Source of the DNA: Gracilimonas sediminicola
GTDB lineage: Bacteria; Bacteroidota; Rhodothermia; Balneolales; Balneolaceae
Assembly (NCBI RefSeq): GCF_024320785.1
Contig: NZ_JANDBC010000001.1
Location: 578,617-642,616, forward strand
DNA length: 64,000 nucleotides
Direction of reading: 5' to 3'
Shown: positions 48,782 through 61,982 of the stretch, piece after piece
How the letters are laid out: each line of letters opens with the position of its first letter
Numbering within the stretch: position 1 is the stretch's first letter
The notes under the pieces: generated by a model
Told to the model about the DNA's origin: nothing
Seen by the model: only the letters and a program-made list of their open reading frames with translations
The model's database searches: none
Program-made: the position numbers and the translations under genes

Positions 48782-49756
48782 ATGAGCACAATTCTCACAC
48801 ACATTGCCATCTCAGACGGTAAAATCAAGCGTTCTTCCCTGGAAGTTTTATCTCATTGCAAAAAATTAGCCGAGTCCGGTGGCCACTCTGTAGAAGCTGT
48901 AATAATCGATGAAAAAGCTTCTTCCTTTGTTGACGGAGTAAAAAAATACGGGGCTTCTAAAATCTATACCGTTGAAGATCCCATTTTCAAAAATCACATG
49001 AACACCCCATTACTGAAGGCTTTGGCTAAAGTGATGGAAACTGCCAATCCATATGTATTTGCATTCGCATCCACAGAAGGTACCAAAGATATTTTAGGTG
49101 CTTTGGCTGCCAACCAGGATGCAGCAGTACTTCCGGATGTTTCTTCTTTTGAACTCGGTGATGGCGGCATTACCGCCAAGCGCCCGGTAATGGCTGCGAA
49201 AATCATTGCCAATACCGAGGCAAAAGGTGATAAGATTTTAGTTTCCGTTCGCTCAGGCTCATATGATTTAGTTGAAAATGAAACCAATGCCGAAGTTGTA
49301 AATATTGACTTCAGCATGGATGACAATGACCTTAAAGCTACGCTTAAAGAAATTATTTCTGCTTCCGGCGACACAATCGACCTGAACGAAGCTGAAGCCA
49401 TTGTTGCAGCAGGACGTGGTGTAAAAGACGAAGAAGGACAAAACCTGATCTCGGAGCTGGCTTCTGTACTGAACGCGGGTATCGGCGCATCCCGTGCCCT
49501 AACCGAGGCCGGAGTTTACGACCCGAGTTTACAGATTGGTCAAACCGGGAAGGTGGTTTCTCCTCAACTGTATATCGCCGTGGGTATTTCAGGAGCCATT
49601 CAACATGTGGCCGGCATGGCAAATTCCAAAGTAATTGTAGCCATTAATAAAGACCCTGACGCACCCATCTTTGAAGTAGCTGACTACGGGATTGTCGGAG
49701 ACTTGTATAAAGTACTCCCTCCCTTCATCGAAGAAATCAAAAAAATCAAAAATTAG
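48782..49756 (+). CDS. fixB: Electron transfer flavoprotein subunit alpha (FixB-type)
   Basis: 324 aa. The C-terminal FAD-binding region is clear: 'IVAAGRGVKDEEGQNLISEL', 'GASRALTEAGVYDPSLQIGQ', 'VVSPQLYIAVGISGAIQHVA', 'VIVAINKDPDAPIFEVADYG'. Forms the heterodimer with FixA. The gap to fixC (78 bases) holds an imperfect inverted repeat at 49769-49827. Confidence 0.92.
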   Translation: MSTILTHIAISDGKIKRSSLEVLSHCKKLAESGGHSVEAVIIDEKASSFVDGVKKYGASKIYTVEDPIFKNHMNTPLLKALAKVMETANPYVFAFASTEGTKDILGALAANQDAAVLPDVSSFELGDGGITAKRPVMAAKIIANTEAKGDKILVSVRSGSYDLVENETNAEVVNIDFSMDDNDLKATLKEIISASGDTIDLNEAEAIVAAGRGVKDEEGQNLISELASVLNAGIGASRALTEAGVYDPSLQIGQTGKVVSPQLYIAVGISGAIQHVAGMANSKVIVAINKDPDAPIFEVADYGIVGDLYKVLPPFIEEIKKIKN

Positions 49757-49768
49757 TAGAGAGCTATG

Positions 49769-49827
49769 AGTTTTGAGTGATGAGTTTAACTCTTTCATTC
49801 AAAACTCGAGACTCCTAACTCAAAACT
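49769..49827. repeat. Imperfect inverted repeat in the fixB-fixC gap
   Basis: AGTTTTGAGTGATGAGT (49769-49785) is complementary to ACTCCTAACTCAAAACT (49811-49827) at 15 of 17 positions, with a 25-base spacer. It could fold in the fix mRNA between fixB and fixC. Confidence 0.75.
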
Positions 49828-49834
49828 AATCCAT

Positions 49835-51160
49835 ATGGACGAAAAGTTTGATTGTATTGTAATTGGTGGTGGAGTAGCCGGACTGGCTGCAGCCATGACC
49901 CTCGCCCGAAACAACATGAAATTCCTGCTAATTGAGCGAGGTGAGTTTGCCGGCTCCAAGAATGTTTCCGGTGGCGTGTTGTGGGGAAGCGACCTTGCCA
50001 AGCTGGTTCCCAACTACTGGGAAGAAGAAGACGGAGGCTGGGAGCGTTTTATCAATCATCGCCGGCTTACTTTTATGGATGAGCAATCTACTTTCTCCTT
50101 AGACTTTAAGTCGTCTCATTTTAATGAGCCCCCCTATTCCGGTGTTGTTGTGCTTCGGTCAAAGTTTGACAACTGGCTCTCCGGTAAAGTTCAGGAGGCC
50201 ATCGATGCTTCCGACTATGCCATGGACTCCTTCATTGCTACCAATATTAAGGTGGATGAAGTACTCATGGAGAATGACAAAGCGGTAGGCATCAAAACCG
50301 GTGAGGACGAATTTCATGCCGATTCGGTAATTATCGCTGAAGGAGTAAATAACTTACTGACCCGCCAGGTTGGGCTCCAGGATAAGTATGTGCCTGCAGA
50401 CCACATGCTTACCGGAATAAAGGAAATCATTCGCTTTGATCAGGAAGTGCTGGAACAAAAATTTCAGCTGAACGGACTCAGCGGAATGAGTAACGAATTT
50501 GTAGGCTGGGCTACCGATGGTGTAGAAGGCGGTGGATTTCTTTACACCAACCGCGATACGATTTCGCTGGGTTTGGTACTGGGAATCAAAGACATGCGTG
50601 AGAAACAGAAAAGTCCGCATGATATTCTGAATCACTTCAAAACCCATCCTACCATCGCTGACATTATAAAGGATGGCGAGATTGTTGAGTACTCGGCTCA
50701 CGTGGTTTCCTCCGGTGATAAGCGAGCCATGCCTAAAGAATTATATAAAGACGGCATCTTGCTGGCCGGTGAATCTGCCAACTTGCTGATGAATGCCGGT
50801 AAAGCTATTCAGGGAATGGACTATGCGATGCGTTCCGGTATTCTCGCAGCTGAAACCATTGTAAAAGCCAAAGAAAAAGGAGATTTCACATCCGCCACGC
50901 TGAAAGAATATCGCAAGGTGATGGATGAAAGTTATGTAATGAAAGACATCAACGGTTTCCAGGATGCAGTGCATCTTCTCCACACCGAAACCATGCAACA
51001 AAAGGTCCCGAATTTAGTTTGTGACTTTGGACGTCAGTTCTTCACCATTAAAAATGAGCCGACTCCAAAATCGAAAGACATGCTGAAAGGGGCGATCAAA
51101 CGTCATTCATCTATCTGGGAATTGGCAAAACTCGGATTCAAAGCAGGAAAATCATTATAA
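49835..51160 (+). CDS. fixC: FixC/ETF-quinone oxidoreductase-like flavoprotein
   Basis: 441 aa. N-terminal dinucleotide fold 'DCIVIGGGVAGLAAAMTLAR' binds FAD, then 'KNVSGGVLWGSDLAKLVP', 'VVVLRSKFDNWLSGKVQEAI', 'ILLAGESANLLMNAGKAIQG' and 'MDYAMRSGILAAETI'. It lacks the C-terminal 4Fe-4S domain of ETF-QO, which here is a separate gene (fixX at 51647). It passes electrons from FixAB to the quinone pool. The FixC-FixX junction is interrupted by an antisense S23 gene. Confidence 0.9.
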   Translation: MDEKFDCIVIGGGVAGLAAAMTLARNNMKFLLIERGEFAGSKNVSGGVLWGSDLAKLVPNYWEEEDGGWERFINHRRLTFMDEQSTFSLDFKSSHFNEPPYSGVVVLRSKFDNWLSGKVQEAIDASDYAMDSFIATNIKVDEVLMENDKAVGIKTGEDEFHADSVIIAEGVNNLLTRQVGLQDKYVPADHMLTGIKEIIRFDQEVLEQKFQLNGLSGMSNEFVGWATDGVEGGGFLYTNRDTISLGLVLGIKDMREKQKSPHDILNHFKTHPTIADIIKDGEIVEYSAHVVSSGDKRAMPKELYKDGILLAGESANLLMNAGKAIQGMDYAMRSGILAAETIVKAKEKGDFTSATLKEYRKVMDESYVMKDINGFQDAVHLLHTETMQQKVPNLVCDFGRQFFTIKNEPTPKSKDMLKGAIKRHSSIWELAKLGFKAGKSL

Positions 51161-51633
51161 GCGAAAGGTGAAAAGGCAGAAGGAAAAAGTATTTATATCA
51201 TATTTGACAGCATAGCAAATACTTCGTTTGCCAGCTTTTCCACCTTCTTTGTGTTATTGTTATTTAGATAATTGAGATTAATAGAGATTTCAAGTTGTGT
51301 ATCAAGTTCAACTAAAGAAGATCTGGATATCCGATAGAATCGCTTTCGATCTTTTTCAGATTTTCTTGAAGCACCTTCTGATAAATTGGAAGGAATTGAA
51401 ACGGCAGCTCGTCTCATTTGACTTGTTAAGCCAAAAGTTTCAGCCTTTGGATAATTTTCAGTTAATCTGTAAATCTCACTAACTAATTCGACACTTTTTT
51501 TGTAAACGTTTAACTGTTTGTGATTCAAATTGATCATAATACCCCGTGTTGATTAATGATTCACAAATAAATACTTAAAAAAATTCAATCTGAAAAGTCA
51601 GCAAAGTTCACCTTTGCCTTTTCACTTTTCACC
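51161..51633. mobile_element. S23-type insert bounded by inverted repeats between fixC and fixX
   Basis: GTGAAAAGGCA (51168-51178) recurs exactly in inverse orientation as TGCCTTTTCAC (51615-51625), and further related GGTGAAAAG/CTTTTCACC words extend to both ends (51161-51190, 51611-51633). The segment begins right after the fixC stop and ends 13 bases before the fixX start. It contains a single antisense S23-family gene. No transposase is present, so mobility is inferred from structure and position. Confidence 0.55.
51193..51537 (-). CDS. S23 / four-helix-bundle protein
   Basis: 114 aa. The family signature 'TFGLTSQMRRAAVSIPSNLS' and 'EGASRKSEKDRKRFYRISRS' are complete. Members were first found encoded in 23S rRNA intervening sequences and also occur as free-standing genes and near diversity-generating retroelements (Avd-like). 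The function is not established. It lies antisense within the fix operon and is bracketed by inverted repeats, which is unlike a normal operon member. Confidence 0.88.
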   Translation of the reverse strand: MINLNHKQLNVYKKSVELVSEIYRLTENYPKAETFGLTSQMRRAAVSIPSNLSEGASRKSEKDRKRFYRISRSSLVELDTQLEISINLNYLNNNNTKKVEKLANEVFAMLSNMI

Positions 51634-51646
51634 AAATAGAAAAGAC

Positions 51647-51949
51647 ATGAAAAACTTAAAACTCACGGAACGACTCGGACTTGTAAGCTATCGTAATCAG
51701 GCAAAGTCGGAGATAAAGGCACATATTGTTGTTGATACGGACATTTGTAATTCAAGCTGTCCGCATAAATGTACTACCTACGTTTGTCCCGCAAATTGCT
51801 ATACGATGGACGACAACGGCAAAGTTCACTTTCAGGTAGAGGATTGCATTGAATGTGGCACCTGCATGTATGCCTGTGACCAGGGAGCGGTAGACTGGAA
51901 TTATCCGGACCCTGAAATCGGCCGTGGTGTTACCTGGAATTTCGGGTAA
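51647..51949 (+). CDS. fixX: FixX-like 4Fe-4S ferredoxin
   Basis: 100 aa from the ATG at 51647, the usual FixX size. A TTG at 51614 lies inside the repeat and is less likely. Cysteine clusters 'CNSSCPHKCTTYVCPANC' and 'CIECGTCMYACDQGA' form the iron-sulfur centres that partner FixC. It is separated from fixC by 486 bases occupied by the S23 element, so its expression may depend on readthrough or on a promoter in or after the element. Its stop abuts the convergent vapC stop with no gap. Confidence 0.9.
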   Translation: MKNLKLTERLGLVSYRNQAKSEIKAHIVVDTDICNSSCPHKCTTYVCPANCYTMDDNGKVHFQVEDCIECGTCMYACDQGAVDWNYPDPEIGRGVTWNFG

Positions 51950-52330
51950 TTAAAAACCTAAATTCTGAAGCTTATCATCCTTTGTAGCCAGGGGAAATTC
52001 ATTCAGCAAGGCCGTTGCTACAATTAAACGATCGGCCGGATCATCTGGAAAATCGGCAGGTAATTTGTCCTGGGCTAAAATCACATCCTGATCAATCGGT
52101 ATCACTTTACAAACCTGAGGCCTTGTAGCCATTTCAATCCATTTTTTGAAAGAAGGCTTCAGGTCAATCACTCCTTTTCGGGCCAGCATTTCCGTTTCCC
52201 AAACCGAAGCGGCTGAAATGGCAATTTCGCGTTGCGCTGCCGACTCATCCAAAGTTTCCCTCTCCTCCTTAGTTAAAGGTCCTTCATCCAACAGCCACCA
52301 CAACCAGACGTGCGTATCAAGTAAAATCAT
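51950..52330 (-). CDS. vapC: VapC-type PIN-domain toxin
   Basis: 126 aa. PIN nuclease fold: 'MILLDTHVWLWWLLDEGPLT' gives the first Asp, 'AISAASVWETEMLARKG' the Glu, 'DDPADRLIVATALLNEFPLA' the Asp pair, and 'TKDDKLQNLGF' the last acidic residue. These residues coordinate Mg for RNA cleavage. Its ATG overlaps the antitoxin gene by 4 bases, the classic type II toxin-antitoxin layout. Confidence 0.9.
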   Translation of the reverse strand: MILLDTHVWLWWLLDEGPLTKEERETLDESAAQREIAISAASVWETEMLARKGVIDLKPSFKKWIEMATRPQVCKVIPIDQDVILAQDKLPADFPDDPADRLIVATALLNEFPLATKDDKLQNLGF

Positions 52331-52539
52331 TCTTCAAATCCTGATTTATCGGCGGAAAGCCCGGACGCTGTTCCCTTCCCTTTTAAATCTTTCCAGGGAG
52401 TACCCTGAACATCCTTCGTTTGGTCAAGCTCATTGGTTAATGACCGGATGATAAGGTCTTTGAGGCTAATGCCTTCTTCAACAGCCTTTATTTTGGCTTT
52501 TTTCATCAGTTCGTCGGGTAAATCTACAGAAGTTCTCAT
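52327..52539 (-). CDS. vapB: VapB-type antitoxin (ribbon-helix-helix)
   Basis: 70 aa. 'MRTSVDLPDELMKKAKIKAV' is a ribbon-helix-helix DNA-binding segment. The rest ('GTPWKDLKGKGTASGLSADK') is a flexible toxin-binding tail. It is the first gene of the pair, so it likely represses its own promoter upstream (52540-52580). The paired VapC confirms the call. Confidence 0.85.
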   Translation of the reverse strand: MRTSVDLPDELMKKAKIKAVEEGISLKDLIIRSLTNELDQTKDVQGTPWKDLKGKGTASGLSADKSGFEE

Positions 52540-61252: not shown

Positions 61253-61323
61253 GCCTCATAGATTTATGAAGCCATAATACCCGTTGTTTTTGAAGATTTG
61301 GTGAATTCTCAGTTTAAAACATC

Positions 61324-61410
61324 GAACAAGGAACAACGAACATCGAACTTTGAACTAATGTAGAAAGACACCTTAAACGTTAAAAGTTGGATGTTCCTTG
61401 TTGGGTGTTC
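61324..61410. repeat. 32-bp imperfect inverted repeat beside the DUF420 gene
   Basis: The left arm 61324-61355 (GAACAAGGAACAACGAACAT...) and the right arm 61379-61410 match inversely at 26 of 32 positions, with a 23-base spacer. Both arms consist of GAAC/ATCGAAC-type words. It lies between hemN and the DUF420 stop codon, 2 bases from the latter. Confidence 0.7.
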
Positions 61411-61412
61411 TT

Positions 61413-61982
61413 TCAACCCCAGGTTTTAAGCATTAAAAATACCAGTACCCCGGTCACTGAAACATATAGCCAGATGGGGAAGGTCCACCGGGATACTTTT
61501 TTGTGGGTTGAAAACTTGCCGCTTAGTGCAAAGTAAAAACTGGAAAGCACCAGCGGCACCACAAAAACGGAGAGGACGATATGCGTTATCAGTATGAAGA
61601 AATAAACAGGACGGATAAAACCTTCGCCCATGAACTTGGTATCTCCCAGAAAATGGTGGTACACCACATAGCTCACCAGAAATAAAGAGGAAGTCACAAA
61701 AGCTGCGAGATTAAACCGCATGTGTTTCTGAAAATCCCTGCGTTTTATTTCCCGGAAAGCCAGCACTAAAAAAATGGTACTCAGAAAATTCAACCCCGCA
61801 TTTACGGCCGACAGGTTCTTAATCCATGGAACCGGAGCCTCGGCCCCTTCCTTAAAATAGATCAGCCAAAAAAGAAAAAGTACGGCCACAATACTCAGCC
61901 CGGCTATCAGTCCGATGGCCTTCTTCGCGCTGATTTGTTCTAATATTTTTGATGATTCAGGTAAGGTGAAATTTTCAGGCAT
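61413..61982 (-). CDS. DUF420 family membrane protein
   Basis: 189 aa with about five membrane helices. 'VPWIKNLSAVNAGLNFLSTI', 'LVSYVVYHHFLGDTKFMGEG' and 'ITHIVLSVFVVPLVLSSFYF' are family patterns; the adjacent His pair (YHHF) and ITHI may bind a cofactor. DUF420/CtaM-like proteins assist maturation of heme-copper oxidases. It is upstream of hemN on the same strand (160 bases apart), across a repeat-containing gap. Confidence 0.88.
   Translation of the reverse strand: MPENFTLPESSKILEQISAKKAIGLIAGLSIVAVLFLFWLIYFKEGAEAPVPWIKNLSAVNAGLNFLSTIFLVLAFREIKRRDFQKHMRFNLAAFVTSSLFLVSYVVYHHFLGDTKFMGEGFIRPVYFFILITHIVLSVFVVPLVLSSFYFALSGKFSTHKKVSRWTFPIWLYVSVTGVLVFLMLKTWG

Follow-up and report, generated by a model that had tools for sequence, protein, structure and literature searches.

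In Gracilimonas sediminicola, the 486-bp segment between fixC and fixX is best read, with moderate confidence, as one copy of a hairpin element that resembles the intervening sequences (IVSs) of 23S rRNA, carrying an S23 gene in its loop and having stem arms made of inverted arrays of 7-8 nt words. The segment lies in a 64,000-nucleotide stretch of contig NZ_JANDBC010000001.1 (hereafter the window). The anatomy and turnover of such an S23 hairpin module outside rRNA are well supported, and its autonomous mobility is plausible. An earlier reading of the sequence alone had described the segment as a non-autonomous insert in an operon gap.

An S23 gene in a hairpin between fixC and fixX

The fixC stop codon (TAA, 51158-51160) and the fixX start codon (ATG at 51647) leave a gap of 486 bp. 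These limits, together with the antisense S23 gene and inverted arms between them, agree with the sequence-only reading. The features of the locus are:

51161-51646, no strand assigned: entire insert, filling the gap from fixC to fixX
49835-51160, plus strand: fixC, host gene, with ETF-QO and FAD domain matches
51647-51949, plus strand: fixX, host gene, with ferredoxin-type matches all below Pfam cut-offs, aligned in relatives
51193-51537, minus strand: S23 (four-helix-bundle) open reading frame (ORF), 114 aa, PF05635 and TIGR02436
51163-51190, plus strand: left arm (repeat arms 51163-51178 and 51167-51190), paired to the right arm in the predicted RNA structure
51610-51633, minus strand: right arm, reading GGTGAAAAGTGAAAAGGCAAAGGT on the minus strand
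51634-51646, plus strand: AAATAGAAAAGAC before the fixX ATG

Profile searches assign the ORF to S23, with an E value of 6.1e-37 and 126.5 bits against PF05635 (cut-off 33.8) and 1.7e-33 and 115.1 bits against TIGR02436 (cut-off 24); a 61-aa ORF on the opposite strand overlaps it. The exact 11-bp inverted repeat noted earlier is present (GTGAAAAGGCA at 51168-51178 and TGCCTTTTCAC at 51615-51625), and mismatched-pair scores place it above chance. It is nested in longer arms, one of 16 nt with 94% complementarity and another of 24 nt with 79%. When the upstream flank is compared to the reverse-complemented downstream flank, the arms of this copy score 30, with words that are themselves irregular. 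In the predicted RNA fold of a 489-nt segment the arms form the basal closing stem (z -4.1), and none of 100 shuffles is as stable. The AAATAGAAAAGAC stretch was probably brought in by the insert; in genome G009, the related insert between fixB and fixC finishes with a similar AAATAGAAGACT.

Empty and filled versions of the junction

Readable fixC-fixX junctions numbered 26 (G000 is the source genome, G004 a congener, and G007 a sister and near copy of G000 with FixC 99.8% identical). The two genes overlap without a gap in 12 of them, namely in G004 (ATGA), G010, G011, G013, G016 and, based on coordinates, seven order members; six hold S23, three an S23-less word hairpin and five other short spacers. 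The S23 insert is antisense and ~490 bp long in G000, G005, G008 and G002, and 564 bp long in G015, while G018 has a related S23 in sense orientation. Beyond the 26, a sense S23 is found at the same junction of G025. The survey that located it took in 14 relatives, two of them (G050 and G033) unparsed. The S23-less junctions of G007, G006 and G003 contain a hairpin of 85-132 bp made of TCAGCTN words, and the other spacers measure 29 bp (G001 and G009), 113 bp (G014), 118 bp (G034) and 42 bp (G041). At fixB-fixC, G009 has an S23 element and G001 an 87-bp hairpin, the two genomes being nearly identical in fixB and fixC.

The idea of an insert in an operon gap is supported by these counts, with 12 of 26 junctions lacking a gap versus six of 26 carrying S23. 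The clean junction that the sequence-only reading had proposed to look for is seen in the congener and 11 other genomes, and a fixC-S23-fixX order in all relatives, which it had named as contrary to the idea, is not what they show. Empty and filled versions of the site, a hallmark of insertion sequences and miniature inverted-repeat transposable elements (MITEs), are thus both found at fixC-fixX. Comparison of the empty site TTATGAAA with the filled TTATAAGC...GACATGAAA allows a target-site duplication of 0-2 nt; other sites are not clean. Because support is poor for part of the inner branches of the fixB+fixC tree, among them the placement of G004, no gain or loss events were counted.

Paired flanks and periodic words

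The source genome has 12 PF05635 genes. Their own-pair flank scores range from 24 to 70 with a mean of 36, compared to a mean of 17 and a maximum of 26 when flanks are mismatched within the genome (132 pairs); 10 of the 12 own pairs score above every mismatched one. The words are private to each copy (TTAGGTG, GACGACC and GAACAAG, for example) and often have a period of 7 or 8. The expectation that the same repeat ends would surround the other S23 genes here therefore holds for the layout, with 10 of 12 flanks paired, and fails for the sequences, which are private per copy. A terminal inverted repeat common to all copies, as in insertion sequences or MITEs, was not found (mismatched mean 17, maximum 26).

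For a wider set, 162 of 184 S23 matches were kept after dropping duplicates and flanks shorter than 80 nt. Scores exceed the 95th percentile of the shifted control (852 windows) at 116 of the 162 loci and the 99th percentile at 96; one control value was 348, and no S23 locus lies above that maximum. Arms were analysed at the 94 loci scoring at least 28, many of which are Flavobacterium orthologs. Their match fraction is 0.46 at lag 7, 0.49 at lag 8 and 0.45 at lag 14, versus ~0.30 after shuffling. The units are thus tandem heptamers, with an excess at lags 7 and 14, and with lag 8 in another group; we take this to be the type of repeat named STRR. When this genome is pooled with relatives from its order, orthologs counted, 59 of 83 S23 loci score at least 24 and 55 of 83 also have a 7/8 period on an arm. 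Inverted flanks are expected of transposases associated with repetitive extragenic palindromes (REPs). In a control set of Y1 transposase genes from the same genus and family, 15 of 20 score at least 24 and 0 of 20 show the 7/8 period.

A promoter-like motif, approximately TTTTGTAAGGAAT then GCTCTTAC with a total of ~30 nt, was noticed by eye 5' of several S23 genes, in the upstream flanks of L004, L008, L009 and L010 and at S23 loci of G027 and G028. It is possibly a host sigma-factor promoter.

Recurrence across phyla

The same arrangement is found in Bacteroidota, cyanobacterial plasmids, Acidobacteria and Pseudomonadota. One S23 clade has 204 loci in a named genome collection, of which the best 80 were examined. 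By eye, words of CWRAG type are common to this clade in Balneolaceae, Flavobacteriaceae, a Chlorobiota and a Neomarinimicrobiota metagenome-assembled genome. Of these 80 loci, 38 score above all 314 shifted controls and only five above the 99th percentile for mismatched pairs, because the words are shared within the clade. Fifteen further genomes gave 17 of 30 loci passing versus six of 118 shifted controls, 13 of the 30 being also periodic; some of these 30 repeat loci of the 80-locus set. A strong rule from S23 clade to word was rejected, the relation, though significant, being weak overall and strong only among close relatives; among S23 pairs with a bit ratio above 0.7 (n=15), 40% are alike in words.

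Among plasmids, 46 records match S23, 40 of them cyanobacterial by name. Arms score at least 24 in 11 of the 14 examined, a count made without a shifted control, and contain arrays such as TAGGGAG or AGGGAAC. The plasmid genes are located at cas6-cas4, cas10-cmr3 and nrdB-nrdA and in transfer operons, so that some cyanobacterial plasmid S23 genes (L266, L259 and L268) sit inside CRISPR-Cas operons, at cas10-cmr3 and cas6-cas4. A tblastn search of 50,697 phage records with the window S23 gave nothing at E 1e-3. A PADLOC defence scan of four proteins returned only a weak Cmr5 match of the window S23 (E 0.0024).

Coupled arms at accB-accC and fixB-fixC

We take PDB entry 2gsc (XCC0516) and a study of Xanthomonas heptamer repeats to concern one Xanthomonas strain. 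From that entry and that study (PMC4692102) we drew the prediction of GGGANTN arrays around S23. A search of 149 genomes gave 54 with matches, and the 30 best-scoring loci (L382, L386-L414) were examined. In all 30, from one Pseudomonadota family in the same phylum as a Brevundimonas genome, S23 lies between accB and accC, framed by GGGANTN or GTGANTN arrays. Arms with 7-nt period and a score of at least 24 occur at 29 of the 30 loci, against shifted controls that are high themselves (19 of 119 reach 24); at 23 of 30 loci each side has two or more GGGANT units, and the orientation of the units is consistent in 148 cases and opposite in 0.

In these 30 related genomes, the letters of the upstream words vary together with those of the downstream words (rho 0.68 and 0.85), and arms matched to their true partners give a higher mean fit than arms with permuted partners (pairing permutation p 0.0002). 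The word hairpins at fixB-fixC, compared over 10 species and assigned to two flavours by eye, give within-flavour arm matches of 22.5 and 27.9 versus 15.8 and 13.4 across flavours; the comparison excludes G007 (near copy of G000), G009 (S23 at that junction) and G013 (lacking a word hairpin). Such coupling means that the arms act together, via pairing, a common reader or templated copying.

The S23 protein and S23-less hairpins

S23 is under purifying selection. At the fix operon the ratio of nonsynonymous to synonymous substitution rates (dN/dS) is 0.03-0.13 in nine of 10 pairs, rough values with dS of at least 1, and not computable in the tenth. Only fix pairs were used; the rows for the recN site (identity below 0.31) seem to compare different genes. 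The fix S23 copy of G008 has a stop inside. The isoelectric point is 9.7 for the window S23 and 9.2 as the median of 162 S23 proteins. The window protein is related to PDB 2gsc (E 2.7e-28), an entry with five chains.

Two word hairpins in the window have no S23:

49754-49834, plus strand: hairpin at the fixB-fixC junction, starting with the fixB stop, z -6.59
61318-61416, plus strand: second hairpin, of GAACAAG and GAACATC words, z -4.65

The first is of a type whose flavour differs between species on both arms, and the second uses the word type that also makes up the arms around S23 at this genome's L011 site. Scanning the window for hairpins without gaps gave a single one, near 61332-61402; allowing gaps added 49766-49830 and two non-periodic hairpins. 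For the term non-autonomous the observations point both ways: S23 is kept as a protein, as judged from dN/dS, while S23-less hairpins exist too.

Searching 57 genomes for the TCAGCTN pattern gave 110 matches in 16 genomes, compared to 13 in six for the reversed pattern; some matches are the arms of S23 elements. A tight link between these arrays and the S23 clade having the same words was not found, and an enrichment of S23-less hairpins in S23-rich genomes is unsupported by contig-end samples. TCAGCTN-type arrays form clusters a few kb apart in G007 (C3, ~102-112 kb) and G027 (C4, ~121-168 kb), which are perhaps variable islands.

Turnover at other sites

Comparison of the 12 S23 sites of the source genome to those of the sister G007 shows that the occupant differs at five, with flanks 85-99% identical between the two genomes. 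A hairpin is found in place of S23 at the fixC-fixX and L002 sites of G007, an S23 of another cluster, in opposite orientation and with other words, at L005, and no S23 at L009 and L010. At L010, G007 keeps the arms with a short other insert between them, and the S23 of G004 is flipped. As a side observation, the L005 site of G004 (L215) has another long inverted repeat, GAACGCTGATGACACTGATT...AATCAGTGTCATCCGCGTTC, where others have S23.

Comparison with known systems

Like the window element, the 23S rRNA IVSs, such as that of Coxiella burnetii, have a terminal stem with an S23 ORF in its loop. The Coxiella IVS is 428 nt long and patchily present, and mobility was proposed for it earlier, according to excerpts of PMC4990558. 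Unlike those sequences, the window element is located in a protein-coding operon (fixC-fixX) and not in an rRNA helix, its arms consist of repeated short words, and 12 S23 genes with private flanks occur in one genome.

REPIN/RAYT systems likewise have a gene beside inverted, hairpin-forming repeats (excerpted text of PMC3116915). Their gene-less hairpins elsewhere in the genome may have a parallel in the S23-less word hairpins. They differ from the present element, which has only S23 and no Y1 transposase domain, has tandem 7-8 nt words, and has words that vary from copy to copy within one genome. Heptameric tandem repeats, described for cyanobacteria, Xanthomonas, Beggiatoaceae and Bacteroidetes in portions of PMC4692102 and PMC4679880, are also tandem 7-nt words and largely intergenic, and the GGGANTN arrays seen here occur in Xanthomonas and Nostoc as well, according to the same portions. 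Unlike the known repeats, the arrays described here are inverted pairs around S23 genes. S23 is not named in the main texts of these two papers, and among openly licensed papers no link between S23 genes and heptamer arrays was found. Excerpts describe heptanucleotide elements in Geobacter (PMC2700814) and tandem repeats in Bacillus (PMC8161180). In the Nostoc trnL intron, the degenerate heptanucleotide repeats of P6b base-pair into a hairpin and fall into two motif classes; that hairpin, unlike the window element, lies within an intron, and S23 is unmentioned in the excerpt (PMC3488679). The Avd and bAvd proteins of diversity-generating retroelements are distant sequence relatives of S23, but PF00078 finds no reverse transcriptase in this genome.

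Proposed mechanism and alternative explanations

In the mechanism that we propose, the arms would pair as RNA, and perhaps also as single-stranded DNA. By analogy with IVSs in 23S rRNA, which RNase III cuts out of the transcript, this pairing may make an operon insert harmless or processable. The basic S23 protein may bind its own stem, and the element would spread or be exchanged at intergenic sites by host replication and repair, without using an encoded transposase or reverse transcriptase; S23-less hairpins would be its passive versions. A broader proposal is made tentatively: S23 modules may be a distinct, widespread class of mobile hairpins with a non-catalytic four-helix-bundle protein that reads arrays of 7-8 nt words, 23S IVSs being copies landed in rRNA, and many unexplained bacterial heptamer repeats being their arms or S23-less derivatives. 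In these data one anatomy links three questions: the function of free-standing S23 genes, the origin of 23S IVSs and the meaning of bacterial heptamer repeats. If S23 binds the arrays that frame it, repeats so far without a protein would gain one, and a route would be suggested by which DNA spreads while encoding neither a transposase nor a reverse transcriptase. Even if the module is immobile, coupled arms over 30 genomes at one site are a sign of paired structure or of a common reader.

Several observations weigh against a mobile hairpin module. Copies share no end sequence and have no clear target duplication, two of the 12 own pairs (scores 24 and 26) are no better than the best mismatched pair, and no mobility protein was seen, nor any transposition in a lineage of known pedigree. 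Seven of the 12 sites align through in G007, consistent with vertical inheritance; the spacer at L009 itself also differs, and occupant changes could come from homologous import of a junction. The 30 accB-accC loci are one site, vertically inherited, and therefore count once for mobility. There the own partner is best or tied at only seven of 30 loci (mean rank 4.6), and the species are related, so the coupling tests are not independent. Word similarity follows protein similarity weakly (Mantel r 0.205, p 0.001; rho 0.07 for order relatives alone). S23-less hairpins with a 7/8 period numbered zero in ~375 kb of contig ends from four S23-rich genomes, one weak S23-less hairpin was found in 381 kb of contig ends from four genomes without S23, and TCAGCTN arrays also occur in genomes without the S23 clade having these words. 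Finally, the Coxiella S23 is reported in an excerpt of PMC4990558 as apparently not made in vivo.

The most serious alternative, which we hold to be rather unlikely, is that the module is not self-mobile: an accessory S23 would move when whole junctions are exchanged by homologous recombination, with the arms staying paired through selection (transcript processing or termination) or through hairpin slippage or templated repair. One-site inheritance with coupled arms in 30 genomes speaks for it, S23-less hairpins exist, and the word hairpins resemble the heptanucleotide stem of P6b as described in the excerpt of PMC3488679. It accounts less well for the five of 12 sites that differ between sister genomes despite flanks 85-99% identical, or for related S23 elements found at different sites and in both orientations.

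Mobilisation of hairpins and S23 elements in trans by host Y1 transposases of the REP-associated type appears improbable. S23 and Y1 counts do correlate over 57 genomes (rho 0.80), and a Y1 gene occupies the L011 site in G003 (L177) and G004 (L174), where other species hold S23; but the correlation ignores phylogeny, three of 29 genomes with at least five S23 genes have no Y1 match, and Y1 genes have flanks of their own without the 7/8 period. We give little credence to an invertible cassette, in which the arms would flip to switch S23 or the operon. Both orientations of S23 at fixC-fixX (antisense in five genomes including G000, sense in G018 and G025) and the flipped gene at L010 would suit it, but no invertase is present among the eight neighbouring proteins scanned, the arms are imperfect, and junctions without any insert exist.

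Avd and bAvd act together with a reverse transcriptase. Copying of the element by such an enzyme, as in diversity-generating retroelements with their S23-like Avd, is hardly credible. In its favour, the window S23 matches Avd models below cut-off (NF033474, 35.1 bits versus 80; bAvd, 24.7 versus 40); against it, RVT_1 (PF00078) has 0 matches in this genome and none in 17 of 29 genomes with at least five S23 genes, and S23 and RVT_1 counts are poorly correlated (rho 0.20, p 0.14). The element does not require a resident PF00078-type reverse transcriptase.

Neighbouring genes

Directly after fixX, a PIN-domain gene (PF01850) and a small gene ahead of it lie on the minus strand at 51950-52539, a pair looking like a toxin-antitoxin system.
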